From Verrucomicrobiales bacterium (GTDB lineage Bacteria; Verrucomicrobiota; Verrucomicrobiia; Verrucomicrobiales; DEV007): DNA of 64,000 nucleotides. The notes below the pieces were generated by a model. That model did not search any database, was not told the DNA's origin, and saw only the letters and a list, made by a program, of their open reading frames with translations. Below are positions 2 to 23,582 of this stretch, piece by piece. The stretch covers positions 1 to 64,000 of the forward strand of contig PAAG01000004.1 in assembly GCA_002698785.1 (NCBI GenBank), read 5' to 3'. The translations under genes were made by a program, and so were the position numbers. Within the stretch, counting starts at the first letter, position 1, and every line of letters starts with the position of its first letter.

Positions 2-3000
2 GCGCCTGATTATTCGAGTGCGGCGCGAGTATTGATTGAGGCAGCGTATGCGAAAGTCGGCGGCCGAGTCGATGTGAGTGGGGCTTCCGGTGGTGAGGTG
101 GCTTTTTCTGGAAGTGAAAATGTCGACGTCACAGGAAGCGTAGACGCGACCGCATCCAATGGAGTGGGAGGCAGCGTTACTATCGAGGCTCCAGAGATTT
201 CGCTCGCAAATGGATCCATCGTGGATGCTTCGGGAAGCGATGGAGGCGGATCCGTTCGCATTGGAGGTGGTTTCCAGGGGAAAGACGCCTCAATTTCCAA
301 TGCGGAGACTTTGACTGTTGCTGATGGCGCGGAAATTTACGCCAATTCCACGAATTCAGGGGATGCCGGGGAAGTGTTCCTTTGGGCCGACGACTCGACC
401 GTTTTCCAGGGACATGTTGGCGCCGAAGCCCAGGGAACTTCCGGTAACGGCGGTTTTGTTGAAGTTTCCGGAAAAGACGAACTCACTTTCGATGGAACTG
501 TTTCCACATTGGCTGCGAATGGTCAGACAGGAACTCTCCTTCTTGACCCAACCGATCTTACCATTAGCAACGGTGCGGCCTCTGCGAATAACGTAAATGT
601 CGGGGATCTAACGACAGCTCTCGGTTCGAACAACGTTGTCGTTTCCACAGATCCGATTGGCACTGATGATGGAGATATCTCGGTCAATGACAATGTGACC
701 TATACGAGTTCGAATGCTCTTACTCTGCTCGCTCATGGCGACATCAATTTCAACGCTTCTGTCCAGAACGGTGGAGCTGGCGATGTCAATGCTGTTGCCG
801 GTTGGGATGGCACGACGGGCTTCGTTGCGGCGAGCCCTGGTGGTTCAGAGACGGGCACTGTCGACATGATGGATTTCTTTTCCGACTCTGACAGCTACGG
901 AAATGCGAAAACGAACGGTGGTTTTGGATCGATCATTTTAGACAACTCTTCTCGTAGAATCGTAGTTGGTAGCCGTCACGGCGACACCCAGATGGTTGGT
1001 TATGGAATCGATTTTTTCATGGGCTCGAATTCTTCCAGTCGAGACCTACTCATCGGTTACCGAGACGTAAATAGCGATACTGGTGCAAATGCAGTGACGG
1101 GGAACATTCATTTAGAAGTTCACAATGAGATCAATCTCCTGAACTCCGATGTGGGACGTACTGAATATTCTAAAATCGGAATCGGTCACGGTGGAACCGG
1201 GAGCGATACCGGCCCTGGACCCGGAGATCTTTCAGGAAATATCACGGTGATCACCGGTGTCGACGGAAAAGGAACTGGAAACATCACTTTGGTCAACGAA
1301 GGGGTGAGCGCTGGAAACGGTGCTGAACGAGAGCGTGTTGGAATTCAAATCGGTCACGGGGGATACCGTATTCATGGGAATCACAGCGGTACGATTATCG
1401 TAGACACCACGCAGGGAACGGTAGGGGATATTACTTTTCAGGGCGGTGATGGAAAGCGTGACTATGCAATGATTGGCCACGGTGGCGTGGACATTGGTTC
1501 GAGCGCTACCGGCGTCAGCACTACTCCACTCAACATGTCGGGGAACATTGAGGTAAGGGCAGGTGGAAATGTTGATTTCACTGCCGGTGCAGCCCGGGGA
1601 GCAGCGCCTTCACAGAGTTGGCGGACAAGTGGAGACTCTTTCACTCAGATTGGCCACGGTGGGCGAAATTCAGATGGTACTCACACGGGATCGATCCTCG
1701 TCGAGGCAGATGGGGATATTCGTTTTCGTTCTGGAGATCAGGAGCGGAACTTTGCGATGCTTGGACATGGTGGCCAGGGAACGAATGGCGATCATTCCGG
1801 CCAGATCGACGTGACTTCAGGAGGTGCGATCATCTTTGATGCGCGCGGGCTCGGAGGAGAACCGGATACCAATGACAGAGATGAAGCTTTCGTGCAACTG
1901 GGGCACGGTGGATATGGGTCTCGTGGAGATACCTCGGGCACGATCAATGTGGATGCCGGAGGTAATATCGAATTCTACGGCGGAAATGTTTCTCCCGGAG
2001 GGATTTCTGCAAGCCGCTCCTACGCACAGTTGGGTCACGGTGGATATGAGACAGACAACCCGAACAACGATGTTTCCAGTCCCGGACCTAATGGAGAAAT
2101 CAATGTAACGGGTAACGGAGATTTGCTGTTCACTGCTGGCAACGGTGACAACTCCTATGTCCAACTCGGGCATGGTGGAAACTCAGCCAAGGGACTGCAA
2201 GACGGGGATATCAATGTTGAGGTAGACGGTGCTATCACATTTACGGCAGGGAGAAGGCTCGGCTATGCCCAACTGGGACATGGCGGATATGATGCGGATG
2301 GTGTTAAGACCGGCAATATTGACGTTTCTGCCGGAAGTGACATCACCTTCCTTGGCGGGGTCGGCACGACGGCTCGAGATTTCAGGGCGCACGCGCAGTT
2401 GGGGCACGGCGGTTATGGAACCGATGGTGCCCACTCCGGAGACATCTTTGTTGATTCGGGCGGGGCAATACTATTCAAAGGAGGTAACCTCGCAGACAAC
2501 TTCGTGATGCTCGGACATGGAGGGCGTTCACGTAGTGCCTCTAACGTGTCAGGATTCAGCGGAGATATTGATGTCTCCGCAGCAACAGGAATTACCTTTA
2601 CGGCTGGCACTATGTTAGAAAGAACTCTGGCGAATGGATTCCAGGATCTTTCTCCTTATTCAAATCTCCCTGATGACGCGAATATTACCAACGGAGACGA
2701 CGGCATTTATGCCGATGGCCGTATTTTTGCGATGTTGGGACATGGCGGCTACGATGGTGATGCTTCGGCTAATAACACCTACAATCCGGGAGTTGGGCAC
2801 ACCGGAGATATTCGTGTAGTCACGGCTGATGGCGATATCACTTTCAATGGGGGAGATGCCGCAAACCTCGGAAGTGAGGGAGCGAACGAGGGGCGTCTTC
2901 ATTTTGCTTTGTTAGGGCATGGCGGCGTAGCGAGTCTCGGTGATCACACCGGTGCGATCGAAGTGGAAGCAACTTTGGGGAATGTAGTATTCAATGGTGG

Positions 3001-6000
3001 AGCGCAAACCAAAGATGGAGAAGTCAATCGCGACACAGGTGTCGTGACTGCAGACAAGACTGACGTCTACAATTTCTCCAAACTCGGTCATGGAGGTGTT
3101 GCTGCCCATTGGGGGAATTCCACGAACGCCGGTGGCCGATTGTCTGCAGCCTCAGCCGGCGGAACTTTGGGGCTGACTGATGGTATAAGTGTAACGGCAG
3201 GAAACGGTATTGATTTCAATGCTGGCCTTGGACGTAGAAGTTATGTGCAACTCGGTCTGGGTGGCCACGAGGTGCGCGGTATTCAAGATGGAGCGATTGA
3301 CCACCAGGGTGACATCACTGTTGTCGCTGGAGCGGGAGGAGTGAATTTTACCGGAGGTGTTAACACTGTAGAAGGAACGGCCAATCCAGCGATTGATAAC
3401 AATGACAATCACGGAAAGGAGTCCTTTGCTCAGCTCGGTCACGGCGGATACGATTCTGATGGAACCTTCGCAGGGGACATTTCAGTTACCACGACGGATG
3501 GTGGTGTTGTAAGGTTTTCCGGCGGTACAAGAGCTGACAACTACGTGCAGATGGGGCATGGTGGACGAAGCTCTCGGTCAGGTACTCCTGGTACGGCAGC
3601 AGGAAACTCTGGCGATATCACAGTAAATGCCGATGGGAATGTCGAATTTGTAGCAGGAACAGTCTTCGAACCTGCTCCGACCAACGAGAATGGTCGCATC
3701 TACGCGATGATGGGCCACGGCGGTTATGATTCCGACGTTTTCGGAGATAATAATTACATCGCTGGTGTCGGGCACAATGGAGATATCATTGTGAATACCA
3801 CCGGAAGTGTGAACGTGATTGGTGGCAGCACGGCCAATGGAAGTCTCGGCGGCGGAAATGGACGTGAGCACTTCGCAATGATTGGTCATGGCGGAATCCT
3901 GACTGGCGGTGATCACGCAGGGGCAATCCAGATCGATGTGGATGGCGATATCAGTGTTCTTGCTGGAGATACAGAAGACAACGACAGCGGTCATCACAAC
4001 CATGCAATGATCGGTCACGGTGGTGGAGGTGGAGCAAACTGGGGGAACACACGAAGTGGAAATCTCTCATCGAACTCCGTTTCCGGAGGAACCGACGGTA
4101 TGCGATTGGATGCTGGCGGTAGCGTGACCGTGTCCGGTGGTGACCGTGAGAGTTTCTCGATGATCGGTCTCGGTGGGCGCACGTTTCGTGGTGATCACAC
4201 CGGAGACGTCACCATCGTAGCTGGTGCGGGAGGTGTGAGCCTTTCTGGCGGATCGGATAACCTCGCTTTTGCCCACATTGGAAATGGTGGATATGACAGC
4301 GATACTGACAACTTGATCGCCGATTCTCACAATGGTTCAGTTTCTGTGACCTCAGTGGGCGATGTTATCGGTATGGGCGGAACTGGTAGTAATGCCTATG
4401 TCCAAATCGGTTTAGGTGGATTGAATTCTAACGGGAATTTTGGTACGGATGGAGTAAGCAACGTCAACGTCACTTCCAGTGGTGGTAACGTGCAGTTTAT
4501 CGGCGGATCTGGCGGATCGGCATATGCTCACATTGGCCACGGAGGGAAGAGTTCGCATGGCTCCCGTGAGGGGAACGTTACGGTAGAGGCTGGTGGTGGA
4601 GTTACGCTCACCGGAGGAACGTCGAACGCAAACTACGCACAGATCGGTCACGGTGGAGAAGACGGCGACGGTTCTGGAACGGGCGATATCTCTGTAACAG
4701 CGAACGGCGGAAATATTGAGATCAGTGGTGGTACTGCAGATCGTGTTAGTGCACAGATTGGACACGGTGGCGTTTTTCGTGAGGATGCCGGTAGCGATCA
4801 GAGTGGAGACATTCATGTCAATGCATCGGGTGATCTCATGTTGGCTTCCGGCGGGGTGACCCAGAACTGGAACTATGCAAAGGTCGGTCACGGCGGGCTG
4901 CAAGTGACAGGAAATCAGATCGGTGATATTTGTATTGAAGTGGGTGGTGGAATTACGCTCGACTCAACAAGCGATACCGGGAACCGGGACTACACACAGA
5001 TCGGACACGGAGGCAGCGCTTCTGATGGAGATATGTCAGGAAGCATTGCTGTTGTTGCCGGCAGTGATATTGTTTTGACAGGAGGAAACACTGACGACAA
5101 CCAGTTTGCTCAGATAGGACACGGAGGCCACGCTAGTGACGGGGCTCTTTCTGGAGATATTGCTGTTGCTTCCACAGGTGGAGATATCAGCCTGAATGGC
5201 GGTGATCGGACATCGAACTATGCGATGATTGGTCATGGTACTGGAAATAATTCCTCCAGCGGCACGCGTCAGGGCGGGGTGGAAATCGCCGCAGATGGCA
5301 CTCTTACCGCGACAAACGGCGGTGGAGACAATGTCTACGTTTACCATAGGACGAGCTCTGGTCTGGCAGCCAACTACCTCGGCGGCACCGGATTCCAACT
5401 CATTGGCGGCGGCGGAGTGACTCTCCCTGATTCGGCTCTTGGTGATCTGTCGACCATGATCAACGGAAACATCGGCGACGGCCATGTTTTCGTAGCCCTT
5501 TCGAATGATATTGATATCACGCTGGATAGTGGTGATGTTAGCCTGAATGACTCCTCTAACCTCGTCCTCGCCACGGGCGGAGAGATCAATGTGCTTTCCA
5601 GCTACCAGAATGCTGGAGATGGCGATGTTACTTTGATTGCCGGATACAGCGGTAACGGCACCGTGGCTTCGAATGCTGTCTTCAACGCGATGGCATGCGA
5701 TGTGGAAATTGACGGCTCACTGCTGGTCGATTTCAATAACTGCGACGATTTCGGATTGAACGGTAATGGCGTGACAATTGGAAGTTCGACTCAGGTGGCT
5801 GCCGTTGCCGTGGGCAGCAGAGCAGGCACGACTACGGTTGCGGGAGATACAGTCACGATTCAGGCAAGCGATTCGACTGTGAGCGCCAGCACGCAACTTG
5901 GTTTCCTCGACGATGGATCGGGTGATATGACAGGCGACATCAATGTCGGAGCCCACACCGGAGTTGCTGTTAACGCGGGAACTGCTGACGATGCATTCGC

Positions 6001-9000
6001 GATGATCGGTCACGGTGGTGGTGCAACCGTCGGGACGAATATAATTGACGCTGCGATAAATATCACGTTCTGCGACCCGGGCGATCTTACGCTGACTTCA
6101 AGCGGAGTGGGAGCGTTCACTATGGTTGGCCACGGTGGCGCAGGTAGTGCGAATGATGCGAATGGGAATATTACCATTTCAAACGCAAACAATATCAGCG
6201 TCCTCGGTGGATCAAACTCGGGGGCTTACTCTCAAATTGGGCTTGGCGGAATGGCAGGTAGCGGTGAGTTGGATGGCAATTTTGATATCGACCTTTCTGG
6301 AGATTTGTTGATCCGCGGCGGTGCCGGTGATGATGCTTATGCACAGATTGGGCAGGGCGGAAGATCACACAAGAACGGGACGAATGACCTGGTAAAATCC
6401 GGGGATATCGACATTGATGGATTCACCAATTTCACCATTCAGGGTGGCGATGGCAATAGGGCAAACGCTCAACTCGGTCACGGTGGTAACGACGGTGATG
6501 ATGGGAAGATCGGTGATATCACACTCACCGGTGCAGGAACGGGAGATTTGACCCTTCTCGGTGGACAAGGTGGCGGAATTCAGAGCTATGCTCTGATTGG
6601 CATGGGTGGCTTCGTTTCAAACAACCAGAAGCGTGGTGCAATAACCATTGATAATGTCGACGATATCTTCCTCACAGGCGGTGAAGCCAACGACAACTAT
6701 GCGCAAATCGGAAATGGTGGGCGCAGTTCCAGCGGAGGTGGAGGAGGAGTTAATGATATTACCCTGACCACTGGAGGGAACCTCATACTTCAGGGGGGAA
6801 ATGCGAACAACACCTATGTGCAGGTAGGTTTGGGTGGTCTCCTCCATCAAAATGGTGCGACCATTAATCAGGACATCTCCGTGACGACAGGAGGTTACAT
6901 CAGCCTTTCCGGCTCCGCCTCCGCCGGAGGAAACAATGCGTATGCGCAAATTGGTCACGGCGGCCTTGATTCGGCGGGGTCGAATAACACGTTGGAGCGT
7001 TCAGGTGATATTACTATCAACGCGATGGGAACCGATGGTTCCGGTAATTCAATTCTCCTCTCTGGAGGTAGCGCTTCGAATTCATATGCACAGATTGGTC
7101 TGGGTGGGCAGGATGCGGACTCCTCCTATACCGGGGACATTGATGTCGATGCTGCAGGGCATATTGTCTTGAATGCGGGAGAAGGTGATGTCGCATACGC
7201 TCAAGTCGGTCACGGTGGCGACAATGCTTTCGACGGCACTCAGGTGCTGGATGATGGAGATGCGGAAAATTCAGGAAATATCACAATCGATACGACGAAT
7301 GGAGGTAACCTTGTTCTTCAGGGCGGCAACGTTCTTGGAGGAGGTGGAACTGATTCCTACGCGCAGGTCGGTCACGGTGGTCATGCCTCAGAGGGAGATA
7401 GTGAAGGGAACATCGATATCAACCTGGCGGGTGGACTCTCTGTTCTGGGAGGGGAAGACGCTACTAATAGCAACGTGGAAGACCGGACCTATGCCCAAGT
7501 TGGGCATGGCGGTGAAAGTGCCGATGGCGCTCATTCGGGGAATATCACGATCAATTCAGTCGACGATGTGGAGCTCGTCGGTGGGGTTGGTGAAGTTTCG
7601 TATGCTTCCATAGGGCATGGTGGACGGAATGAGAATGTCGGTGGAAACACCGGCGACATTTCTGTTACGACCACTTCAGGTGGTATTCGACTTTCAGCAG
7701 GAACCGGTGGAGCGGGGTGGAACGTTCGCTCCTACAGTCACATTGGTCATGGTGGTGCAAACTCTGCAGGAGATCACTCAGGGGATATCACACTGAGTTC
7801 TGCTGACTTCGTCGCTCTTGAAGACGGAAACCACGACTTGAACTACAAGCTTGTGGGACATGGTGGTGACGCTGCTTCCGGTAATTTCACAGGTGCGATC
7901 AATGTTACCGCTGTGAACGACATTGATCTGATCGGTGGAATCAATGATGTGGACTTTGCTCAGATCGGTCATGGTGGTTCAAATTCGAGCGGCTCCTTCA
8001 ATGCAGACATTGCGGGGAGTGGTGCTTTGGCAGGGGTGAATGTCACTTCAACTGCTGGTGCAATCACCGTGAATGGCGGCCGTATCAATCAGTCCAACAA
8101 CGATGGTCGCCGCGCCTACGCACAGATTGGTCTAGGCGGTTACAATTCCAACTCCACCTTGGATGCTGACATTTCTGTTAGTGCGGCTACTGGCCTTGAT
8201 CTTGAAGGCGGTGGTCGCGACCACAACTACGCGTTGATCGGAAACGGGGGCGACTTGGCCGACGGCGATAAGTCGGGAGATATTTATGTCACTACTGCGG
8301 CTGGGAACTTCGTTATTCAGGGTGGCCGAAGCCACGAATTGAATGCTGCCCAGATCGGTCACGGTGGTTTCCGTGCGACTGGAAACGCCGCTGGTTCTAT
8401 CGAGGTCGATGTGCAGGCGGGATCACTCACTCTCATGAACGGCGGTGGTGACGATGCGCTGAACAGCACAGCTACCCACCAGACCCCCGGATACGACAGC
8501 TTCAGCTATGCGCAGATCGGTCACGGTGGCGGTGAAACAGGCGTATTTCTTCGCGATGGCGAAATCTGTGTGCACGCTAGAGATGGCGTGACTCTCGATT
8601 CAAACGATACAGGTGATCGCGCATACACCCAGATCGGTCACGGAGGTTACGATACCGGCGGCGACACGACTGGCGATGTCACGGTAGTCGCTTCCAATGG
8701 TGCTGTTTCCCTCGAGGGGGGCAGCAATGGTATGGAGGGACAGTATGCGCAGATCGGTCACGGTGGCGTGAATGCTTCTGGTGCGCTCAGCGGAAACGTA
8801 AACGTGGTTGCCGGAGACGGAGACATGACTCTTAACGGAGGCGATGCGGATAACTCCTACGCCATGATTGGTCATGGCGACGGAGCTGGCACATCGACTG
8901 GCACTCGCCAGGGCGGAGTTCATCTTTTCTCCAGCGGCACACTTTCCGGATCAGTTGGTTCCGGTTCGGGAAGTGGAGTGAATGTGTTTCACCAGACAAA

Positions 9001-12000
9001 CGGGGGGCTTGCTGCAGCGGATTACCTTGGCGGCGATGGTTTCCAGATGGTCGCCAATGGTGGCGTATCTCTTCCAGATTCTGCCCTCAACGGAGTGGGA
9101 ACAATGATCGGGGGGAACCTCGGGAATGGTCCTGTCTCTGCTGTCTTCAGTAATGATGTCGACGTCGTGATAGACGGCCCTGACACATTTGTCAGCAATT
9201 CAGACAATCTGCAGATCGTCACGGGCGGAGATATCACATTCCTGAGCTCCTACCAGAATGCCGGAGACGGTAATATCACCTTGGTAGCAGGTTGGGACGG
9301 AGTCGGTGGTGCCTCAACTGGATCGGTGAGTTACACTGGAATGAGCTTCTGCGAACCTGTGATCGAAGAAGGGGCCGCCTCGGTGGACTTCAACAATTGC
9401 GATACATTTGGAAACGGCATGGGGTCGATCACAATCGGCAACAATACCCAGACCGCGGCGGTTGCCGTAGGGACTCGTCAGGGACTGACGACTTTGGCTG
9501 CCTACGGTCTTTCCATCAACGGCTCAAACACAACGGGCAGTGCGTATTCACAGCTCGGCTTTGCCGCGGATGGATCGGGTGACGCCACTGGGAACATCGC
9601 CATCAATCTTGAGCAAGGTGGTTTGAATGTTATTGCTGGTTCTCAGGCTAGCTCCTATGCGCAAATCGGTCATGGCGGTTCACTCGGGACTGAGTCGATT
9701 GTGAATGCCGATATCGACATTAGCTTCTGCGAACCGGGTGCAGTTTCGATCTTGGGCGGAGGAACCTCCTCCTATGCTATGGTCGGAAACGGCGGATACG
9801 ATTACGATACCAACGTATCCGGAAATGTGAGCCTTACTGGGTCTGGCGACGTTGCCATTACCGCAGGGTCTGGCACGAATTCTTTCGCAAAAGTCGGTAA
9901 CGGAGGAAATAACTCTACTGCAGATAAAACGGGCGACATCAATATTACGACTGGTGATGGGAGTGTTCTCGTAACCGGCGGAACTTCGGACAACGCCGTT
10001 GCTGTTGTCGGTCACGGTGGCAGGTCCGCAGGTGGCGCAGAACGAGGAAACATTACTGTAATAGCGAATGGAGCTGACTCTGACGTTTCCGTTCAGGGCG
10101 GTCCCGGATCACAGGCAATGGCACAGATAGGGTTTGGTGGAACCCAGTCCAACGGCACCAAGGGCAATGATGCTGAATCAATTACGGTCGAAGCGGGGCG
10201 CGACATCAATGTTATCGGTGGTGGAACGAACAATGCCTTGGCCCAGGTTGGACATGGCGGGCTCGTGACGTCTGGAACTTTCAGCGGAGACATTTCTCTC
10301 ACAGCGGGTGGTGATGTGAATGTGGTAGGCGGTCAGACAGGCGGTGATGATGTCTATGCGCAGGTCGGTCACGGCGGCGCGACAACTTCGGCAACTACGC
10401 GTGGTAACATCACTGTAAATGCTGGAGGTAACGTGCTTGTGAGAGCGGGTACGAATCCGACTCCTGGTAATTCAGGTGCAGACACACCGAACTACGCTCA
10501 AATCGGCCACGGTGGTCACGAAAATCGCGGCAACCATGGTGTTGCCACGGACAAGATTGAAATCTCAGCAGCCAACTTGGAACTCATTGGTGGTTCTGGT
10601 GACCAGTCCTATGCGCAGGTCGGTAACGGCGGATATGATGCCGGTGGTAATTTTGCCGGTGAGATTTGTGTCCACGTCGACACGGGTGTGATCTTGAATT
10701 CGAACGCAGTTACCGGTGCGCGCGGATATACCCAGATCGGTCACGGAGGATATATATCCGGAACTGCGGGATCGACATACGAAGGTGATATTGTTGTCAC
10801 CTCCGGCAGCGACGGAATTTCTTTGCGTGGTGGAGACTTGGCCGATGGTCAGTATGCTCAGATCGGTCACGGGGGAATTAGTACAGATGGGCCAATGTCT
10901 GGCGAGATTTTCGTAGGTGCTCAGGATGGTGGCGATCTCACGATTACGGGTGGTGCTGCTAACCAATCCTACGCAATGGTCGGTCATGGTGATGGAGCCG
11001 GAGTGGCTGGTGTCGAGGATAGCGGTACGTCCGGCGGAACTCGTGAGGGTGGCATCCAGTACTTCGTGGATGGTGATATGACCGTAACGAACGGCAGCGG
11101 CACGGACAGTAATGCCTATCTCCACCATCGAACCAATGAACCTGGCGGCTTGAGCGGAGCCGGCAACTATCTCGGTGGAGAAGGCTATCAGGTAGTCGTC
11201 AACGGAAACACCAGCGCCCCAGCCAATGCTTTTGAGGGATCTGGAGCGATGCTCGCCGGTAGTGCCGGGAATGGAAATATCGTCTTTGCGAACAATGCCA
11301 ACGTCGACCTCATCTTCGATGGGCCCGACTACATGTTCGACAATGATTTTGACTTTATCATCCTCACTGGTGGCAGCATCTTTATGAACCAGGGATACCA
11401 GAACGCCGGATCTGGCAACGTAGCTCTGGTTGCTGGGTGGGATGGAACATATGATTCTCCTGCCACTCTCGACGTGACAGATCCTTGTGATCCGAAGATT
11501 CTTTCGGCATCAATCGATTTCAACTCGTGCGAACGCTATGGGAACAACAACGGAACGGTGTATCTCGGTGATGCGACCCAGACGGAGTCTCTCCGTGTAG
11601 GCAGTCGTCAGGGTACTACAACCGTGGCTGGTTACGGCTTGGTAATGAATGCGAGTTCGGGCACTGCGAACGCATCGACACAACTTGGTTTCTACGGAGA
11701 TGGCAGCGGTGCTTTCAGTGGGGCTATTGAAGTGCGTGTAAAAGAAGGTGGCCTTACCATGAATTCGGGGACCACAGGGGCCTTTACTCAAATTGGTCAC
11801 GGCGGCCTTGATTCCGACAGCGATGCAAGCACAACCGATGCGACAATCTCCATCTCATTCTGCGAACCAGGAGACATCAATATTAATGGAGGAACCGGGA
11901 CGAATGCATACGCCTTAATCGGCCATGGCGGTGTCCAATTGGATGCAGACCAGCGACTTGGCGACATCAGCATCATGGGATTTGATAATCTCAATGTAAA

Positions 12001-15000
12001 CGGAGGTTCGGGAACTCACACCTATGCTCAGATTGGCCATGGAGGACTGAACAGCCGTGGCAATACCGGTGGTGATATCTGGGTTCAGGGGACGGGAGCG
12101 ATTTCGCTCACAGGAGGAACAGCTCAAGACGCCTACACACAGATTGGTCATGGTGGTCATGACAGTAATGCAAACCATGGTCAGGCCGGAGATCGTATCG
12201 TCGCGATTGCCGACCAGGGAATCAACTTGATTGGCGGAGACACTGCGGGTGCTTCCTACGGTGCCTATGCGATGATCGGTCAGGGTGGTTACGACGCAGA
12301 CGGGGCTCTGACAGGAGATATTTACGTAAACTACGATCCAGATGCCGACATGGCAGCGGGTGGTGGCGACATTGTTCTCTTTGGTAGTCCTAAACTGACA
12401 AATGAGCAGAACTATGGAACGAATGCCCAGATCGGTCATGGTGGCCGAAATCAGGAAGGGGCGAAGACCGGTGACATCGTGATCGGCGCGGCTGATAGTA
12501 TTTCGCTCACCGGTGGCCAGTATCGTAGTTACGCTCAGATCGGTCATGGCGGAAATGACTCCAATGGAAACAACAACAACGGTACTGTCACTGGATCCAT
12601 CGAAGTGAATACGACTGGCCTCTTGGATCTCCAGGGTGGTATCGGCCGGGAATCGTGGGTCATGATCGGCCATGGTGGATATAACATCGGTGGAGATCTC
12701 GGTGCAGATGGTGACATCATTGACATCACCGCAGACGGGGGTGTCTCCTTGACCGGAGGTGATGATATCCAGTCGTTTGCTCAGATCGGTAATGGTGGAT
12801 ACAACTCGGACGGGACGATGAACATGGATGTTTCTATTGCGACAGGCGGAGACATCACCATGTTGGGCGGCACTGCTACCGATACATACACACACATTGG
12901 CTCTGGTGGTACTGCTTCTGACGGTGCAATCGTCGATTCTGACATCATGATCGAAGCTGTCGGAGGCATTGATCTCAACACAGGCAGCGCAAGCGTTAGC
13001 AACGCATATGCCCAGATCGGTCATGGTGGTTACAACACCATGACGTTGAGCACTTCGAATTCAAACATTCTCATAAATCAGGGAATGGGAACTGGAACGG
13101 GTGCGATCACTCTGGATGCTGACGGAGTAAATGCCTATGCCCAGATCGGTCATGGTGGTTCCAGATCCGATGCGAATGTGGGAAGTGCTGATCGCGGCGG
13201 CAATATCGTAATTGGGAACGCGGCTTCAATCGCTCTTGGTTCTACCGACGGCGGAGGTACACAGACAGACGCCTACACGCAGATTGGACACGGCGGAGAG
13301 TTGGCTGTGGGAACATTCAGTGGAGACATCTCTTTGAACACTGCTGGCGCATTCACGATGTCTGGTAATACAGGAGGTGACACTTATTCTCAGGTGGGTC
13401 ACGGAGGTGACCAAAGTAATGGAGATACAAGTGGTTCCATCTCGCTTGTGGCGGGCGGCAAAGTAACTATGACTGGCGGATCTACCAATGGTGATAGCTT
13501 CGTACAGATTGGGCATGGGGGACGTTTGAATAACGGCAACCATGGTGTTGATGGTGACTCTATTTCCGTAACCGGAGACGGTGTGGAAATCAGCGCAGGA
13601 AGCGCGAACAACACCTATGCTTTGATCGGGAACGGTGGCACGGATGCCGATGGAACGATCTTTGGAGACGTCAATGTAACGAGTACCGGAGGGGATGTGA
13701 CGTTGAATGCGGGAACCGGTGGATACGTGTACGCCCAAATCGGTAGTGGAGGGGCGATTGCTGGTGGCGCTACAACTGGAGACGTCGTGGTCGATGCCGG
13801 TTCAGGCAATGTTAACGTGAACGCAAGCTCTTCGGCAAACGCATACGCCCAGATCGGAATTGGGGGTATTAATAACGATGGCACCAAGAACGGAACGACG
13901 ACCGTTTCTGGAAACGATATCTCTGTCGTGTCTGGCACTGGAACCCAGGCCTACGCCCAAATCGGTGCAGGTGGAGGATACGACGGTTCTCCATCTTCTG
14001 GTCAGATCACAACTGCCACACACGTAAATGCGACAGGAGACGTCTTGCTCGATGCCTCTTCAAATGCAGCTCAAACCTATGTCCAGATTGGTGGCGGCGG
14101 TCTTGTTGGCGGTGGCGGTGTTGTAGGAGTACCAGACTCGGGGACGAATATCTCCACGGTGGTTTCTGCTGATGGCTCGCTCACCATGCTGGGTGGAGGT
14201 GGAAGCAACACCTACGCAATGATTGGTAATGGCGGCACTGGCTTCGACGGAACAAAATCGAACGCCGGTGTTTCGGTAACTGCATCGGATATTACCATGA
14301 CGAGTGGCAACAGTGCGTCTGCTTATACTCAGATCGGTTCTGGTGGGGGAATCTCAGGTGGTGGTAACACCTCAACGGGAGCCATCGACGGCGACGTTGT
14401 GGTGACAACCACTACAGGAGGATTGACGATGACTTCTGCGTCGGCTGGGAATTCCAACACTTACTCACAGATTGGTCTCGGAGGCTATGGTAACGAGGGT
14501 GGGCAAAGTGGTGACATCACCGTTTCCATTGCGACTGGAATTACCCTCGATGCCACCGCAGGAGCAGGTGCAAACTCTTACGTCCTGATTGGTAACGGAG
14601 GTGAAGCTTCGACAGGAAACAAAACGGGGGATATTACGGTTAGTGCCTCCGATGGATCGATTCGCCTTCTGTCGGGAGATGGAACAAACAACTATGCCCA
14701 GATTGGCCATGGTAGCGTAAACACTTCATCAACTCAGACAGGTGCAATCAGCCTGATGATCGATGGTGGTGATTTGGAATTGAATGCGGGAGACGGGAAT
14801 TTTGCTCAAGTCGGCCATGGTGGTATGGGTGACATGGGCAATCTGGTCACAAGCACAGGAGATATCTCCGTTACCTTTGCAAATCCTGGAGATGTGCTCT
14901 TGAACGCAGGACCTTCCGCGAACTCTTATGCTCAGATCGGTCACGGTGGAATCAACGTAGTCGGTGATCGCGATGGCTCGATTTCGATTACAGATGCCAA

Positions 15001-17923
15001 CGACATCGTTCTCCAATCGGGAGGTTCTGACAGCGCCTACACCCTGATCGGTCACGGGGGTGTCGGAAACGACGGCTTCCTCGACGGAAACATCGATATT
15101 ACCGCGGCTGGCGGTATTCAGCTAAACGGCGGAGGGACCGCAGCAGACGGTATTGAAGGCGACATGAACTTTTCCATGATAGGCCATTCTCTGGCAGGTG
15201 CGCGTGGCGGTTATGGTGGCTTTACCGAGCAGAACGGTCGCGTTGTTGTTGAGGCGGAGTATTTCGATGATTCCGATTCGTGGGTCATCCTGGAAGAAGG
15301 AACCTCCGCAACGGGCACGCCGTTTATTGGCTCCCGGAATGGTTACTTCATTCAACTTCCAGACGGTAGTGGATCGACTGGGCCTCTGACCGGTTCTGCG
15401 GTTACCTACACATTTGAAGTCACAACAGGCGGAACCTATCGACTCTACCCACGCTGGAGCGGTTACGATGGTGCGAGTGACTCCATCTTCTTTGATGTTG
15501 TGGAGGCTAAAGATGGCACTGGTGGAACAATTGCGGACTGGTATGAATTTGGTGCTCAGGGGAGTGCTAATTTCAATACTGCTGGCTGGGATACTGGCGG
15601 CGGTCCCGAAGAGAATGCTGCGAACGACTCTAACGTTCCTGCCGTGTTCGATCTCGCTCCGGGAACCTACACTTTCCGTGTGACTCCCAGGGAAGATGGT
15701 GCCGCATTTGATGCTTTTGTTCTGCAATTGGATAATCTGGGCACTCCTACAGGAAATGGACCAAACGTCTCATTCAGCCAGTTGAGTGGAATCGGCGGTG
15801 GTGACATCAACGTCACTGCCGGAGGGGACATCAGCCTGACTAGTGGTGTAAATAGCGACTCCTACGCTGCAATCGGTCACGGTGGATCGAATCATGATGG
15901 ATTCGCCGATGCTCTCTCATATGGGAGTATGGCGGATGGAGCGAATGTCACCGTGACTTCACAGACTGGTTCGGTAAATCTCGATGGCGGGCAACTGGCC
16001 GGAGATTCCGTTGACGCGGCTCGTCGTTACGCCGTTATCGGACATCATGGAGTCGATGCCGAGTTCAATGCCTACGGCAATGTCGAGGTAAATGCCGGTG
16101 GGGGAGACATCAACCTGACTGCCGGCACTGTGGCAGATAGTTTTGCTCACATCGGACACTCGAGTGGTGGTGGAATTAGTCGCCCCGATGTTACTCTCAG
16201 CGGCAATGTTCTTGTCACTGCAGCAGGTGCTGTGAATCTAAATGCAAGTGATGCAGAGCAGGGCCACGCGCACATTGGACACGGTGGCACGGGCATCACT
16301 GGTGAGAAGGCAGGGAATGTCGAAGTCACCGGGACGGAGTTCTCTCTAATCAGTGGGGCTGGCTCTTCCAGTTACACGCAGATTGGTCACGGCGGTGACG
16401 ACGCCGCAGGTGCAGCAAGCGGAGACGTTTCAGTCGAATCTACTCTTCCCGGCGGAGATCTAGCAATGGAGGCGGGAACTGGTTTGAATACATATTCCCA
16501 GGTCGGTCACGGCGGAGCAGAAGATAGCGATGGAGACAAGACGGGTAACGTTTATGTAGAAGTCGGAGACCTGACAATGTCCTCGTCTACAGGTGCTCGC
16601 TCGTTTACACAGATCGGTCACGGCGGAGATGGTTCTGGCGGAGCGAAATCCGGAACGGTTGAAGTAATCACAGAAACTGCCTCGCTTCAGGGCGGGGATG
16701 GAGTTCGCGCCGCTTCTCGAATTGGTCACGGTGGAAGTGGCGGCAACGGAGCTGTCGACGGAAGTATTACTTTCAGCGCCTCTCTTGGTGATATTTCGAT
16801 GATTGCTGGAGGCGGTCTTCACAGCGAAGCACAAGTCGGACACGGTGGTGTAGGCTACTCAGGAGCAGTTCAAGACAGTCAGATCGATGTGACTGCTCAA
16901 GGAGATCTTCTCATGGGAGGGGGCACAGGAATTCACGCAGCTTCTCACATTGGCCATGGCGGTTCTCTTTCTTCCGGATCGGAATTCAGTGGAGATATTA
17001 CGACAGTGATTGGAGGAGATATCTCAATTCTCGGAGGTGCTGCGACAGGTGCTTCCGGGCAGATTGGTCACGGAGGAGTTTCTGCTGATGCGGACATGAG
17101 TGGGAACATTTCCGTCGAAAGCGGTGGCGACATCGCCCTTCTCGCCATCAACGGAGACAACGGAGCCTATTCGAAAATCGGTCATGGCGACGATCTCCCA
17201 TCGACTCTCGCAGTTCTTGCCGGGGGAGGTGACCGTTCCGGGGATATCGAAGTGGCTGCTGCATCTGATATCGGTCTTGTCGACGCGATGATCGGACACG
17301 TGAACATGGCAAACATGAATGCTACGCCAGTGAGCGGAATTACCCAGGTCGGTGTCAGCCGCGATGATCCAACAGATCAGTCTGGTGGAGATTTGATTGC
17401 AGACAGTCGAAGCGAATTCGTTGGTATTGATGAATTGCGATTCTATCTCCCGAGAAGAGAAAACAACCGGATCGCTGCAGGAGCGAAGCTGAATGGAGTG
17501 GCCTATGGGGGAGCTCCCAGCGACCCGACCGAGACGCAGGGAGTCGATGAGTTTACGATCAACATCATTGGAGATCAGATCCTGTTCCCGAACGAGCATG
17601 AGAATACGTTTGGAACAGGCCCATCTCCTGCAACATCGGCAGGATTCGCGTTCTATTACGACACGATCGAGATTGCGGAGATCGTGGACGATGGAACGGA
17701 TGATGGAGTTGGTAATGGAGGAGCCGGAGCTGGTTCCGGTGGATTATTCGATCTCCTCGGTTTCCTGTTTATCGACGATAAGGCGCTCAGCGACTGGTTG
17801 CGTGATCAGGAAGAGGAATACAGTAGATATCACCCATTCTCGATCTACTACGAAGGCTTCTCGCAGTATGGTGTGAACGGTGAGTCCATCTTCCAAGTGA
17901 ACGATCAAGATCTCACTGAGTAG
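2..17923 (+). CDS. Giant filamentous-haemagglutinin-like repeat protein (5' truncated by window), about 108 IGHGG units
   Basis: Frame 2 is open from the window edge (gcg cct gat tat tcg ... ttg att gag), so the TTG at 32 is not a credible start. The N-terminal visible part has FHA/TPS-adhesin style text (GGSVTIEAPEISL, GTLLLDPTDLTI), followed by an array of (A/V/T)(Q/M)(I/L/V)GHGG units. Stop at 17921-17923. Confidence 0.9.
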   Translation, partial: APDYSSAARVLIEAAYAKVGGRVDVSGASGGEVAFSGSENVDVTGSVDATASNGVGGSVTIEAPEISLANGSIVDASGSDGGGSVRIGGGFQGKDASISNAETLTVADGAEIYANSTNSGDAGEVFLWADDSTVFQGHVGAEAQGTSGNGGFVEVSGKDELTFDGTVSTLAANGQTGTLLLDPTDLTISNGAASANNVNVGDLTTALGSNNVVVSTDPIGTDDGDISVNDNVTYTSSNALTLLAHGDINFNASVQNGGAGDVNAVAGWDGTTGFVAASPGGSETGTVDMMDFFSDSDSYGNAKTNGGFGSIILDNSSRRIVVGSRHGDTQMVGYGIDFFMGSNSSSRDLLIGYRDVNSDTGANAVTGNIHLEVHNEINLLNSDVGRTEYSKIGIGHGGTGSDTGPGPGDLSGNITVITGVDGKGTGNITLVNEGVSAGNGAERERVGIQIGHGGYRIHGNHSGTIIVDTTQGTVGDITFQGGDGKRDYAMIGHGGVDIGSSATGVSTTPLNMSGNIEVRAGGNVDFTAGAARGAAPSQSWRTSGDSFTQIGHGGRNSDGTHTGSILVEADGDIRFRSGDQERNFAMLGHGGQGTNGDHSGQIDVTSGGAIIFDARGLGGEPDTNDRDEAFVQLGHGGYGSRGDTSGTINVDAGGNIEFYGGNVSPGGISASRSYAQLGHGGYETDNPNNDVSSPGPNGEINVTGNGDLLFTAGNGDNSYVQLGHGGNSAKGLQDGDINVEVDGAITFTAGRRLGYAQLGHGGYDADGVKTGNIDVSAGSDITFLGGVGTTARDFRAHAQLGHGGYGTDGAHSGDIFVDSGGAILFKGGNLADNFVMLGHGGRSRSASNVSGFSGDIDVSAATGITFTAGTMLERTLANGFQDLSPYSNLPDDANITNGDDGIYADGRIFAMLGHGGYDGDASANNTYNPGVGHTGDIRVVTADGDITFNGGDAANLGSEGANEGRLHFALLGHGGVASLGDHTGAIEVEATLGNVVFNGGAQTKDGEVNRDTGVVTADKTDVYNFSKLGHGGVAAHWGNSTNAGGRLSAASAGGTLGLTDGISVTAGNGIDFNAGLGRRSYVQLGLGGHEVRGIQDGAIDHQGDITVVAGAGGVNFTGGVNTVEGTANPAIDNNDNHGKESFAQLGHGGYDSDGTFAGDISVTTTDGGVVRFSGGTRADNYVQMGHGGRSSRSGTPGTAAGNSGDITVNADGNVEFVAGTVFEPAPTNENGRIYAMMGHGGYDSDVFGDNNYIAGVGHNGDIIVNTTGSVNVIGGSTANGSLGGGNGREHFAMIGHGGILTGGDHAGAIQIDVDGDISVLAGDTEDNDSGHHNHAMIGHGGGGGANWGNTRSGNLSSNSVSGGTDGMRLDAGGSVTVSGGDRESFSMIGLGGRTFRGDHTGDVTIVAGAGGVSLSGGSDNLAFAHIGNGGYDSDTDNLIADSHNGSVSVTSVGDVIGMGGTGSNAYVQIGLGGLNSNGNFGTDGVSNVNVTSSGGNVQFIGGSGGSAYAHIGHGGKSSHGSREGNVTVEAGGGVTLTGGTSNANYAQIGHGGEDGDGSGTGDISVTANGGNIEISGGTADRVSAQIGHGGVFREDAGSDQSGDIHVNASGDLMLASGGVTQNWNYAKVGHGGLQVTGNQIGDICIEVGGGITLDSTSDTGNRDYTQIGHGGSASDGDMSGSIAVVAGSDIVLTGGNTDDNQFAQIGHGGHASDGALSGDIAVASTGGDISLNGGDRTSNYAMIGHGTGNNSSSGTRQGGVEIAADGTLTATNGGGDNVYVYHRTSSGLAANYLGGTGFQLIGGGGVTLPDSALGDLSTMINGNIGDGHVFVALSNDIDITLDSGDVSLNDSSNLVLATGGEINVLSSYQNAGDGDVTLIAGYSGNGTVASNAVFNAMACDVEIDGSLLVDFNNCDDFGLNGNGVTIGSSTQVAAVAVGSRAGTTTVAGDTVTIQASDSTVSASTQLGFLDDGSGDMTGDINVGAHTGVAVNAGTADDAFAMIGHGGGATVGTNIIDAAINITFCDPGDLTLTSSGVGAFTMVGHGGAGSANDANGNITISNANNISVLGGSNSGAYSQIGLGGMAGSGELDGNFDIDLSGDLLIRGGAGDDAYAQIGQGGRSHKNGTNDLVKSGDIDIDGFTNFTIQGGDGNRANAQLGHGGNDGDDGKIGDITLTGAGTGDLTLLGGQGGGIQSYALIGMGGFVSNNQKRGAITIDNVDDIFLTGGEANDNYAQIGNGGRSSSGGGGGVNDITLTTGGNLILQGGNANNTYVQVGLGGLLHQNGATINQDISVTTGGYISLSGSASAGGNNAYAQIGHGGLDSAGSNNTLERSGDITINAMGTDGSGNSILLSGGSASNSYAQIGLGGQDADSSYTGDIDVDAAGHIVLNAGEGDVAYAQVGHGGDNAFDGTQVLDDGDAENSGNITIDTTNGGNLVLQGGNVLGGGGTDSYAQVGHGGHASEGDSEGNIDINLAGGLSVLGGEDATNSNVEDRTYAQVGHGGESADGAHSGNITINSVDDVELVGGVGEVSYASIGHGGRNENVGGNTGDISVTTTSGGIRLSAGTGGAGWNVRSYSHIGHGGANSAGDHSGDITLSSADFVALEDGNHDLNYKLVGHGGDAASGNFTGAINVTAVNDIDLIGGINDVDFAQIGHGGSNSSGSFNADIAGSGALAGVNVTSTAGAITVNGGRINQSNNDGRRAYAQIGLGGYNSNSTLDADISVSAATGLDLEGGGRDHNYALIGNGGDLADGDKSGDIYVTTAAGNFVIQGGRSHELNAAQIGHGGFRATGNAAGSIEVDVQAGSLTLMNGGGDDALNSTATHQTPGYDSFSYAQIGHGGGETGVFLRDGEICVHARDGVTLDSNDTGDRAYTQIGHGGYDTGGDTTGDVTVVASNGAVSLEGGSNGMEGQYAQIGHGGVNASGALSGNVNVVAGDGDMTLNGGDADNSYAMIGHGDGAGTSTGTRQGGVHLFSSGTLSGSVGSGSGSGVNVFHQTNGGLAAADYLGGDGFQMVANGGVSLPDSALNGVGTMIGGNLGNGPVSAVFSNDVDVVIDGPDTFVSNSDNLQIVTGGDITFLSSYQNAGDGNITLVAGWDGVGGASTGSVSYTGMSFCEPVIEEGAASVDFNNCDTFGNGMGSITIGNNTQTAAVAVGTRQGLTTLAAYGLSINGSNTTGSAYSQLGFAADGSGDATGNIAINLEQGGLNVIAGSQASSYAQIGHGGSLGTESIVNADIDISFCEPGAVSILGGGTSSYAMVGNGGYDYDTNVSGNVSLTGSGDVAITAGSGTNSFAKVGNGGNNSTADKTGDINITTGDGSVLVTGGTSDNAVAVVGHGGRSAGGAERGNITVIANGADSDVSVQGGPGSQAMAQIGFGGTQSNGTKGNDAESITVEAGRDINVIGGGTNNALAQVGHGGLVTSGTFSGDISLTAGGDVNVVGGQTGGDDVYAQVGHGGATTSATTRGNITVNAGGNVLVRAGTNPTPGNSGADTPNYAQIGHGGHENRGNHGVATDKIEISAANLELIGGSGDQSYAQVGNGGYDAGGNFAGEICVHVDTGVILNSNAVTGARGYTQIGHGGYISGTAGSTYEGDIVVTSGSDGISLRGGDLADGQYAQIGHGGISTDGPMSGEIFVGAQDGGDLTITGGAANQSYAMVGHGDGAGVAGVEDSGTSGGTREGGIQYFVDGDMTVTNGSGTDSNAYLHHRTNEPGGLSGAGNYLGGEGYQVVVNGNTSAPANAFEGSGAMLAGSAGNGNIVFANNANVDLIFDGPDYMFDNDFDFIILTGGSIFMNQGYQNAGSGNVALVAGWDGTYDSPATLDVTDPCDPKILSASIDFNSCERYGNNNGTVYLGDATQTESLRVGSRQGTTTVAGYGLVMNASSGTANASTQLGFYGDGSGAFSGAIEVRVKEGGLTMNSGTTGAFTQIGHGGLDSDSDASTTDATISISFCEPGDININGGTGTNAYALIGHGGVQLDADQRLGDISIMGFDNLNVNGGSGTHTYAQIGHGGLNSRGNTGGDIWVQGTGAISLTGGTAQDAYTQIGHGGHDSNANHGQAGDRIVAIADQGINLIGGDTAGASYGAYAMIGQGGYDADGALTGDIYVNYDPDADMAAGGGDIVLFGSPKLTNEQNYGTNAQIGHGGRNQEGAKTGDIVIGAADSISLTGGQYRSYAQIGHGGNDSNGNNNNGTVTGSIEVNTTGLLDLQGGIGRESWVMIGHGGYNIGGDLGADGDIIDITADGGVSLTGGDDIQSFAQIGNGGYNSDGTMNMDVSIATGGDITMLGGTATDTYTHIGSGGTASDGAIVDSDIMIEAVGGIDLNTGSASVSNAYAQIGHGGYNTMTLSTSNSNILINQGMGTGTGAITLDADGVNAYAQIGHGGSRSDANVGSADRGGNIVIGNAASIALGSTDGGGTQTDAYTQIGHGGELAVGTFSGDISLNTAGAFTMSGNTGGDTYSQVGHGGDQSNGDTSGSISLVAGGKVTMTGGSTNGDSFVQIGHGGRLNNGNHGVDGDSISVTGDGVEISAGSANNTYALIGNGGTDADGTIFGDVNVTSTGGDVTLNAGTGGYVYAQIGSGGAIAGGATTGDVVVDAGSGNVNVNASSSANAYAQIGIGGINNDGTKNGTTTVSGNDISVVSGTGTQAYAQIGAGGGYDGSPSSGQITTATHVNATGDVLLDASSNAAQTYVQIGGGGLVGGGGVVGVPDSGTNISTVVSADGSLTMLGGGGSNTYAMIGNGGTGFDGTKSNAGVSVTASDITMTSGNSASAYTQIGSGGGISGGGNTSTGAIDGDVVVTTTTGGLTMTSASAGNSNTYSQIGLGGYGNEGGQSGDITVSIATGITLDATAGAGANSYVLIGNGGEASTGNKTGDITVSASDGSIRLLSGDGTNNYAQIGHGSVNTSSTQTGAISLMIDGGDLELNAGDGNFAQVGHGGMGDMGNLVTSTGDISVTFANPGDVLLNAGPSANSYAQIGHGGINVVGDRDGSISITDANDIVLQSGGSDSAYTLIGHGGVGNDGFLDGNIDITAAGGIQLNGGGTAADGIEGDMNFSMIGHSLAGARGGYGGFTEQNGRVVVEAEYFDDSDSWVILEEGTSATGTPFIGSRNGYFIQLPDGSGSTGPLTGSAVTYTFEVTTGGTYRLYPRWSGYDGASDSIFFDVVEAKDGTGGTIADWYEFGAQGSANFNTAGWDTGGGPEENAANDSNVPAVFDLAPGTYTFRVTPREDGAAFDAFVLQLDNLGTPTGNGPNVSFSQLSGIGGGDINVTAGGDISLTSGVNSDSYAAIGHGGSNHDGFADALSYGSMADGANVTVTSQTGSVNLDGGQLAGDSVDAARRYAVIGHHGVDAEFNAYGNVEVNAGGGDINLTAGTVADSFAHIGHSSGGGISRPDVTLSGNVLVTAAGAVNLNASDAEQGHAHIGHGGTGITGEKAGNVEVTGTEFSLISGAGSSSYTQIGHGGDDAAGAASGDVSVESTLPGGDLAMEAGTGLNTYSQVGHGGAEDSDGDKTGNVYVEVGDLTMSSSTGARSFTQIGHGGDGSGGAKSGTVEVITETASLQGGDGVRAASRIGHGGSGGNGAVDGSITFSASLGDISMIAGGGLHSEAQVGHGGVGYSGAVQDSQIDVTAQGDLLMGGGTGIHAASHIGHGGSLSSGSEFSGDITTVIGGDISILGGAATGASGQIGHGGVSADADMSGNISVESGGDIALLAINGDNGAYSKIGHGDDLPSTLAVLAGGGDRSGDIEVAAASDIGLVDAMIGHVNMANMNATPVSGITQVGVSRDDPTDQSGGDLIADSRSEFVGIDELRFYLPRRENNRIAAGAKLNGVAYGGAPSDPTETQGVDEFTINIIGDQILFPNEHENTFGTGPSPATSAGFAFYYDTIEIAEIVDDGTDDGVGNGGAGAGSGGLFDLLGFLFIDDKALSDWLRDQEEEYSRYHPFSIYYEGFSQYGVNGESIFQVNDQDLTE
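1180..17320 (+). repeat. Protein-coding tandem array of IGHGG-type units (unit about 35-60 aa)
   Basis: Hand count of about 108 units from KIGIGHGG (about 1180) to AMIGHVNM (about 17310). At DNA level the core is often cagatcggtcacggtgg or a close variant. Confidence 0.88.
15236..15750 (+). other. CBM6/35-like carbohydrate-binding-type domain inserted in the repeat array
   Basis: VVVEAEYFDDSDSW...YTFEVTTGGTYRLYPRWSGYDGASDSIFFDV...APGTYTFRVTPREDGAAFDAFVLQLDN. Resembles the beta-sandwich of CBM6/CBM35/GH115-C families and contains no IGHGG unit. Confidence 0.6.
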
Positions 17924-18083: not shown

Positions 18084-20600
18084 GTGAGCACAGTGCGGAC
18101 AAAAGAAGTGGCAAAAGCAGTTTTCCCAGCCACCTGGGGATTGCTCGTGGCTTTCTTATGCCAAATGCCTGACATCGCTTCTGCAGATGGAAATGAGATT
18201 CCTGGCGGGGTAGCCGGGATGGCTGCCTCAGAAGTCCAGGCCCGCCAGAAGAGAGTCGAGGCAGCTCAAACTCTTTTTGCAGCTGGAACAAGAGCGAGTG
18301 CTGATAAGTCCTACGGAGAGGCGATGGACAACTTCAAAGCAGCGTTCGAAACCGTTCCTGACGTCCCCCTTCTGGAGTCCCAGCGGTTGGCATTTTTTAA
18401 GCGATACCAGTCCTCAGCTTACCGGTTCGCGAACCAACTGATGGAAGAGGCTCGCTGGGCGGAAGCAGAGCAAACCCTCAGTGACGTGCTTATGCTGGCG
18501 CAACAGGGGGGGATTCCCGTAGCCGTAATTGATGCCGACATTCGCAAGACTCTTGGGGAGTTGAAAAGCCACGACGATCGCTTCAACCAGGCGCTTACTC
18601 CACGACATCTTCGTGATGTGGAAACAGTTCAGAGCAAACTGATCATCGCGAAGGGATATTTGGAATTGGGGGACTACGACCGTGCTGAGCGGGCCTATAG
18701 CCAAGCACTGAACGTCGACCCTTACAACGAGGCTGCGAGACGTGGTCTGGAAGAAGTTGAGCGGTATAGGATGGATTATTTCGACGTCGCCTACGATCAT
18801 AACCGCGCGAAGCGATTGGCAGAAGTCAGGGCGGCCTGGGAGTCTCCTGTGCCTCCGGTATATGTTGATGACACGGAGATTGGAGAGGTAGGCGAAGTCG
18901 CCGGCGGATCCAAAGTGGTGCTGGAGCGAAAGCTGAAAGATATCATTATTCCGAGCTTGGAGTTCAGCAACGCACGCCTCGTGGACGTAGTAGAGTTTCT
19001 GGTTCAGAAGTCCCAGGAACTGGATGCGCTGGAGCCGAATCCGACGAAGAAAGGGGTTAATATCGTCATCGATTCTTCTGGTTCTTCTACTGGAGAGGAT
19101 CTCTCTCAGAAGACGCTGACCGTTCGGCTGACCGGTGTGCCATTGGAGGTAGCTTTGAAATACGTCGCTCAACAGGTGGGAATGAAATACCGCGTAGATC
19201 AGTTTGCGGTTATGGTCGTTCCGGCGTCGGTAGCGGACGATGTGGGATTGGTGACAGAGACTTTCGAAGTGCCTCCAGGCTTTCTGAATCCCGAAGGTGC
19301 GAGTTCTGGCGGAGGCGGAGCCGTTGCTGATCCTTTTGCTACGACCACTGAGCCGACAGTGCAGTTGGTGAAGCGTATCGATGCCCAGACATTCCTCACG
19401 AACAACGGCGTAGCGTTTCCCGATGACGGTTACGCAAAATTTGTTTCTTCCACCAGTCGCCTTGTCGTCCGGACGACTCCGCAGCAGATGGAGACGGTAA
19501 GGAATCTCGTCCAGTCAGCAAAGGAGAGCGGAGACAAGATGGCGAAGATCTCCGTTCGGATGATTTCGGTGAAGGATATTCTCCTTCATCAACTGGGAAT
19601 GGATTTCCTGTTGGGACCTTCCAATCTGGGATCGACGCCGCGTGTCTTTGCATCTGGTGGAACCGATGGGAATGCCGCTATCGGAGTAAATCCCAACGAC
19701 TTTCCGTTCACACTTCCTTCAGGGGTTGCAGCTGGTATGAGTCCCGTCACAAGTGGATTGCGAATGGGAGATCTTTCGACAAGCCAGACTATCGCAGATG
19801 TGATCAATCGTGATAATCCGACCGCAGGTGGAACCTCCAGGGCACCCGGAACGTTTGCTGTCTCCGGGGTATTCACAGACCCACAGTTCCAAATGGTTTT
19901 GCGCACGCTCAGCCAGCAGAAGGGCGTCGACAATATGTGCAATATTCACGTCACGGTGAAACCGGGACAAAGAGCCCGCATCGAACAGATTCGTGAATTC
20001 ATTTATCCGACAGAATACGATCCCCCGGAGATCCCGAACGACGTAGGGCGAATTCCACTGGGAAATAACGTGAACCTCATCGGTGAGTCGACGGGGCTTT
20101 TCCCGGCTACTCCAGCTACTCCGACTGCTTTCGAGACGCGGAACCTTGGTAAAGTAATTGAGGTAGAGCCGACCGTTTCGGAAGACAACAAGACGGTGAA
20201 CATGAATATCACCGCGGACTTCAGTGAGTTCGTCGGCTTCATCAATTACGGGACGCCGATTCGGAATATCACTTTCAGGCTTGCTGACGGTTCTCCTTCC
20301 ATTGTGACACAGAACAGAATCTTAATGCCTGTTTTCGATGCAACCAAAGAGACGACAAACGTTTCTGTCTGGGATGGGCAGACTGTCGCGATTGGCGGAT
20401 TGCATGAAGAAACGATCACCGATGGAGAAGACAAAGTTCCTTATCTTGGTGATCTTCCTGTGCTCGGAAGAGCATTTCGCTCTTCTGTTGAGAACAGGAC
20501 GAAGAGAGCAATGATCATTTTCGTATCGGTCCGCTTAATCGATCCAGGCGGAAATCCAATTAATCCCACACTTCAGGACGTGGAGATAGCGAGCCAGTGA
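18084..20600 (+). CDS. TPR-containing secretin-type outer membrane protein (type II/IV pilus secretin family, Amuc_1098-like)
   Basis: GTG start; signal-like N-terminus, TPR (KGYLELGDYDRAERAYSQALNVDPYNEAAR), secretin C-terminal motif VWDGQTVAIGGLHEE...VPYLGDLPVLGRAFRS...RAMIIFVSVRLIDP. Confidence 0.82.
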   Translation: MSTVRTKEVAKAVFPATWGLLVAFLCQMPDIASADGNEIPGGVAGMAASEVQARQKRVEAAQTLFAAGTRASADKSYGEAMDNFKAAFETVPDVPLLESQRLAFFKRYQSSAYRFANQLMEEARWAEAEQTLSDVLMLAQQGGIPVAVIDADIRKTLGELKSHDDRFNQALTPRHLRDVETVQSKLIIAKGYLELGDYDRAERAYSQALNVDPYNEAARRGLEEVERYRMDYFDVAYDHNRAKRLAEVRAAWESPVPPVYVDDTEIGEVGEVAGGSKVVLERKLKDIIIPSLEFSNARLVDVVEFLVQKSQELDALEPNPTKKGVNIVIDSSGSSTGEDLSQKTLTVRLTGVPLEVALKYVAQQVGMKYRVDQFAVMVVPASVADDVGLVTETFEVPPGFLNPEGASSGGGGAVADPFATTTEPTVQLVKRIDAQTFLTNNGVAFPDDGYAKFVSSTSRLVVRTTPQQMETVRNLVQSAKESGDKMAKISVRMISVKDILLHQLGMDFLLGPSNLGSTPRVFASGGTDGNAAIGVNPNDFPFTLPSGVAAGMSPVTSGLRMGDLSTSQTIADVINRDNPTAGGTSRAPGTFAVSGVFTDPQFQMVLRTLSQQKGVDNMCNIHVTVKPGQRARIEQIREFIYPTEYDPPEIPNDVGRIPLGNNVNLIGESTGLFPATPATPTAFETRNLGKVIEVEPTVSEDNKTVNMNITADFSEFVGFINYGTPIRNITFRLADGSPSIVTQNRILMPVFDATKETTNVSVWDGQTVAIGGLHEETITDGEDKVPYLGDLPVLGRAFRSSVENRTKRAMIIFVSVRLIDPGGNPINPTLQDVEIASQ

Positions 20601-22548: not shown

Positions 22549-22579
22549 TTGATAACCCCCTAAAACCCCTTTTCATAAA

Positions 22580-23500: not shown

Positions 23501-23544
23501 ATCCTTCTCTCACAGCCGGATATAAGGCTCGCTTGAGGGTTGCC

Positions 23545-23578
23545 ATCACGCCCCGGATTCTGTATTCCGGGCGTGATA
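23545..23578 (+). terminator. Strong hairpin after korB, immediately before the GntP start
   Basis: atcacgccccgga-ttctgtat-tccgggcgtgat: 12 bp with one bulged C, followed by attttATG. Confidence 0.7.
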
Positions 23579-23582
23579 TTTT

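Follow-up and report, generated by a model that had tools for sequence, protein, structure and literature searches.

The window, a 64,000-nucleotide stretch of the genome of a Verrucomicrobiales bacterium (contig PAAG01000004.1), opens inside a giant reading frame composed largely of a repeated unit that carries the motif IGHGG. What kind of protein does this frame encode, how would such a protein leave the cell, and what does the recurring histidine do? The single frame of more than 5,970 residues that the original prediction had described holds, at 5,973 codons on the plus strand (Table 1), and its hand count of about 108 units is borne out by a regular expression that finds 105 matches to [ILVM]GxGG in the frame, against a mean of 10.9 and a maximum of 20 in residue-shuffled versions of the giant. 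The narrower GHGG occurs 71 times (mean 1.4 and maximum 6 after shuffling) and IGHGG 44 times. The units, which fall into five blocks with recurring interludes between them (motifs AGWDG, VGSRxG and NNC or NSC), are mostly spaced 36-46 aa apart; over the repeat family as a whole, the commonest spacing is 37.

Table 1. Features of the window in order along the plus strand (positions are those of the window).
Feature	Position	Strand	Detail
Giant TpsA-type exoprotein gene, 5'-truncated by the contig edge	2..17923	+	One continuous frame (2-17920) of 5,973 codons, open at its 5' end, plus a stop ending at 17923
Segment with LLLDPT, related to the interludes	536-982	+	Motif positions
Repeat block 1	1181..5128	+	30 [ILVMF]GxGG motifs; regex blocks
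Interlude LGGxGF ... AGYSG ... NNC ... VGSRxG, between blocks	5378..5827	+	Motif positions
Repeat block 2	6005..8767	+	24 motifs; regex blocks
Similar interlude	9026-9484	+	Motif positions
Repeat block 3	9665..10876	+	11 motifs; regex blocks
Similar interlude	11171-11614	+	Motif positions
Repeat block 4	11792..15061	+	29 motifs; regex blocks
Inserted domain of ~190 aa	15224..15793	+	44-55% identity to inserts in other species' giants
Repeat block 5	16274..17077	+	8 motifs; regex blocks; 16220-16768 modelled
Conserved C-terminal domain, final motif YYEGFxQYGxxGES	17141..17920	+	47-57% identity, nine homologues
Amuc_1098-family type IV pilus secretin	18084..20600	+	NF042912, 831 bits vs cut-off 750

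The histidine itself turns out to be less constant than the original prediction supposed when it called this residue near-invariant. Within the window it occupies the x of [ILVM]GxGG in 71 of the 105 motifs, the remainder carrying N, L, S, Q, M, A, G, I or F, and the fixed part of the unit is the frame G-x-G-G. When 2,265 units are pooled from 52 ORFs of this genome and its relatives, the column is 79% His and 12% Asn, the former figure being perhaps somewhat too high because the outside loci were retrieved with IGHGG-containing patterns. Both histidine codons are in use within the GHGG motifs of the window (CAC 44 times, CAT 27 times), which argues that its units are not very recent tandem copies. 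The window's part of the giant has 12 cysteines, all between positions 4931 and 11863; they recur at matching places, most of them within an interlude or next to one (e.g., MAC...NNC), and could possibly form disulphides.

The unit matched no entry in Pfam, NCBIfam, PHROG or PDB, in agreement with the expectation that no named family covers it. The two halves of the giant hit no Pfam family at E 0.01, 20 repeat segments gave no Pfam family, haemagglutinin repeats included, beyond chance level, and a viral structure library returned nothing significant. Literature on the motif and on giant hemagglutinins in Verrucomicrobia likewise yielded no description of the unit. The C-terminal domain has no match in Pfam or PDB. 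The inserted domain, whose homologues sit elsewhere in other species' giants, could be assigned neither to a family with confidence nor to a solved relative; it shows weak hints of carbohydrate-enzyme accessory domains, and it may bind glycans. Nowhere in the giant was a binding domain recognised with confidence.

How the giant begins can be read from a second contig. The window starts at base 1 of its contig (C7), and its first 99 bases are the exact end, in frame, of contig C1 (17,633 bp). The last ORF of C1 (L025:16651-17631) adds the N-terminal ~295 residues and, with them, a signal peptide and a two-partner secretion (TPS) domain, so that the window's giant would possess both of the features that had been expected upstream. 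Frame, exact 99-bp overlap and synteny agree on this probable join, which would give a protein of about 6,268 aa from the C1 methionine (6,301 codons from stop to stop). The recovered N-terminus, MFAKSPG...VPVQA|NPRGG, has a basic start followed by a hydrophobic stretch and is, judged by eye, a cleavable Sec signal peptide. The adjoining domain scores 108 bits against PF05860 (cut-off 33.5), and its nearest solved relatives are HMW1 (2odl, E 4e-30), EtpA and HxuA. It ends just outside the window and was thus invisible to the original prediction.

Nine ORFs of this genome, from 1,461 to 8,899 codons in length, carry a PF05860 domain above the cut-off; two of them, short ORFs on contig C19, have essentially no IGHGG units. 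Each of these short tpsA genes has ahead of it a small ORF (L032:5327-5911 and L032:10315-10866) that, judged by eye, resembles FecR. Three ShlB/tpsB genes were located in the genome, two beside tpsA pairs (C19 and C50) and one an orphan on C23, and none of the three is linked to the window's giant. In other species, tpsB adjoins IGHGG giants at four loci (L067, L069, L087 and L093), as it does on this genome's own C50, and this adjacency identifies the window's giant as a TpsA protein. Within the genus, 28 of 34 genomes have the repeat, as do 41 of 75 in its family within the Verrucomicrobiales, whereas none of 288 genomes from elsewhere in the phylum does. Beyond the phylum, the repeat occurs in two MAGs, one assigned to Gammaproteobacteria (L067) and one to Candidatus Auribacterota (L082); these related loci were retrieved with a hand-written unit consensus, and the resulting list favours canonical relatives. 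The gammaproteobacterial locus (L067:7556-15584) comprises a 2,064-codon tpsA with 29 units and a tpsB directly after it, and reflects either a possible transfer between phyla or a possibly misplaced contig.

Our preferred reading, to which we assign a probability of about 0.72, is that the frame in the window encodes the body of a giant TpsA exoprotein that is exported by a TpsB protein, forms a stiff beta-solenoid with residue ladders, and likely serves attachment or aggregation. In such a scheme, Sec would export the giant, and a TpsB pore, perhaps the product of the unlinked tpsB on C23, would pass it through the outer membrane. The chain would then fold outside into a stiff solenoid in which each unit makes one coil and ladders of Ile, Tyr and His (or Asn) run the length of the solenoid, and the resulting filament would most likely act as a surface fibre in attachment or aggregation. 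By general geometry, about 100 coils at 4.8 A give repeat blocks of roughly 50 nm.

Predicted structures are consistent with such a solenoid. From window sequences only (20 rows), AlphaFold2 modelled four units with a pLDDT of 95.4 and a pTM of 0.92; a second stretch of five units reached 87.5 and 0.87. Both models are solenoids with one coil of ~37 residues per unit. Each coil runs through strand IxV, a turn of two to three residues, strand IxL, a loop, strand YAQI, the turn G-H, a bridge residue and a further loop, and the four-unit model has five strand or bridge segments per unit. FHA-type helices have coils of ~19-25 residues. The original prediction of an FHA-like, two-partner-secretion beta-helix adhesin has accordingly fared unevenly: the secretion type stands, through the signal peptide, the PF05860 domain and the HMW1 and EtpA relatives, whereas the ~37-residue coil is much longer than those of FHA-type helices. 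AlphaFold2 is prone to confident but false beta-solenoids when given perfect repeats (PMC11795689). The present units are highly imperfect as repeats, and among the 259 of them that have 37 residues the IxV and IxL strands are amphipathic (charge 0-3% on the inward side and 15-39% on the outward side), so the sequences themselves support the strands.

Could the coil instead be an amyloid-like layer? In this alternative, the ~37 residues of each unit would adopt a Greek-key arrangement, not a three-sided beta-helix, with YAQI buried on both sides, and the giant would amount to a covalently linked functional-amyloid biofilm fibre. FapC was the first Foldseek match for both models, and for one of them CsgA came next. 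Each layer of FapC consists of five short strands with Asn/Gln networks (PMC12392863), which recalls the five segments per modelled unit, and YAQI is uncharged on both faces. However, Foldseek returned no significant solved match for either model; the FapC hits (E 0.012 and 0.006, probability below 0.1, TM-score 0.15 or less) are a lead only, and two ordinary solenoids packed laterally would also leave an uncharged face. We consider the amyloid-like layer unlikely. The further idea that the giant represents a new class of beta-solenoid, with amyloid-like Greek-key coils of ~37 residues and a packed ladder of His extending over tens of coils, all in a single giant chain delivered by two-partner secretion, seems to us similarly doubtful.

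For the ladders of the preferred solenoid reading, the repeats offer evidence of their own. When units are shuffled within runs of consecutive units, the stricter form of the neighbour test because it removes regional composition, adjacent units still share residues above chance at the Ile that precedes the motif (z 9.7), at the His (z 6.5) and at the Tyr (z 4.4); one second-strand position reaches z 3.4, and the loops lie near zero. A looser shuffle gives z 13 for the His. Recent duplication should have lifted the loops as well, and a ladder is thus supported. The proposal that the histidines stack coil on coil therefore gains ground.

The same proposal had gone on to suggest an exposed histidine face that binds metal or responds to pH, and here the column is less accommodating. 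A free surface ladder of this kind, on which metal ions are bound or adhesion is switched by pH, could draw on the enrichment and stacking of His and on a second, less conserved His found nine residues later in 22% of units. That second His, however, lacks neighbour coherence. Moreover, a charged residue (K, R, D or E) fills the main column in no more than 15 of 2,265 units, the chief substitute there is Asn, and every position of Y-A-Q-I-G-H-G-G shows just 0-6% charge on both faces (259 units of 37 residues), all of which makes an exposed functional ladder improbable. We take the His instead to form a packed polar ladder where the chain turns after strand YAQI, of the Asn-ladder type and mainly structural, with the direction of the side chain inferred; the Y/Q face may lie hidden inside the coil or against a second chain.

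The genomic setting bears on both the history of the giant and its route of export. Contig C1 also carries the tail of another giant and, directly upstream of the window's, a complete second giant (5,153-codon ORF). On contig C47, the N-terminal part of a giant directly follows a gene that by eye seemingly encodes a peptidase. The simplest reading is of one locus broken by repeats into three contigs and comprising this flanking gene, three tandem giants, the secretin and the 2-oxoacid oxidoreductase genes, in which the window's giant is probably the last of the three. A direct sequence overlap between C47 and C1 was sought and not found, and synteny alone links them. C47 also contains two ORFs that are RHS-like by eye (L065:5916-7841 and L065:8900-12001). 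The TPS domains of the tandem giants on C1 (L025:1261-2010 and L025:16780-17529) share ~99% identity for about 270 aa, after which the two proteins abruptly part. Near-identical domains on diverged bodies suggest that recombination or gene conversion moves the secretion module onto different bodies and, together with the tandem copies, that the repertoire of giants is reshuffled by recombination.

The Amuc_1098-type secretin downstream might be taken for the giant's dedicated exporter, given that it lies on the same strand 160 bp away and that giant and secretin are adjacent in the same order in four other genomes of the genus. Synteny within the genus refutes this partnership, which we regard as very improbable: in 14 genomes the orthologue of the C47 flanking gene directly precedes the secretin with no giant between them, the secretin also occurs in genomes lacking any IGHGG match (G013, G031 and G032), and most giants do not adjoin a secretin. 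Its retention without a giant in many genomes marks it as an old neighbour, not a partner. After the secretin, positions 20725-25028 encode the alpha and beta subunits of a 2-oxoacid:acceptor oxidoreductase and a permease of the GntP family; the order of secretin and oxidoreductase is kept within the genus. A CdiA-like protein for contact-dependent or polymorphic toxin delivery, in which a TPS domain and great length are likewise common, can be rejected as scarcely credible, as the C-terminal ~260 aa are conserved among homologues (47-57% identity) where they should be variable and match no toxin or other family, and the next gene encodes a secretin, not a small immunity protein.

Set beside known systems, the giant resembles the TpsA adhesins (HMW1, EtpA, FHA and HxuA) in its signal peptide, its TPS domain of the same family, its repeat body rich in Gly, Ala, Ser, Thr and Asp, and the presence of tpsB in the genome. 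It departs from them in its uncatalogued ~37-residue GHGG unit with no Pfam repeat match, in the size of the giants here (up to 8,899 codons), in the lack of linkage between tpsB and the window's gene, and in a conserved C-terminal domain of its own. In the Asn ladders of pectate-lyase-type beta-helices, the same polar residue is stacked at a short two-residue turn, with about 22 residues per coil. The polar stack at a turn between strands is shared with the present giant, in which Asn is the commonest replacement for His, whereas the ~37 residues per coil, the predominance of His and the lack of a significant fold match are not. As for functional amyloids, FapC and curli gave neither a significant Foldseek match nor a Pfam repeat match; like the giant, FapC has one imperfect repeat per layer, several short strands and stacked polar residues, but it is assembled from monomers with three repeats each (PMC12392863), unlike a single chain of about a hundred units with a TPS domain. 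Finally, Apilactobacillus kunkeei is reported to have consecutive genes for giant extracellular proteins (Giant1-5, 3,000-8,000 aa) that take up a notable share of the genome (PMC12863079). The likeness, one of description only, lies in that consecutive arrangement; the host is Gram-positive and hence has no TPS route.

As judged from its sequence, the giant is a repeat variant of the TpsA exoprotein, and what is new in it is the uncatalogued unit of ~37 residues. This repeat forms some of the largest proteins of the bacterial family, in several copies per genome, and with a profile of the unit one could annotate dozens of giants whose repeats match none of the libraries searched. If the His, Ile and Tyr ladders hold, the repeat would show that nature builds solenoids around a histidine ladder, which is useful for understanding and designing fibres, and it would point to the likely surface fibres of these environmental bacteria.
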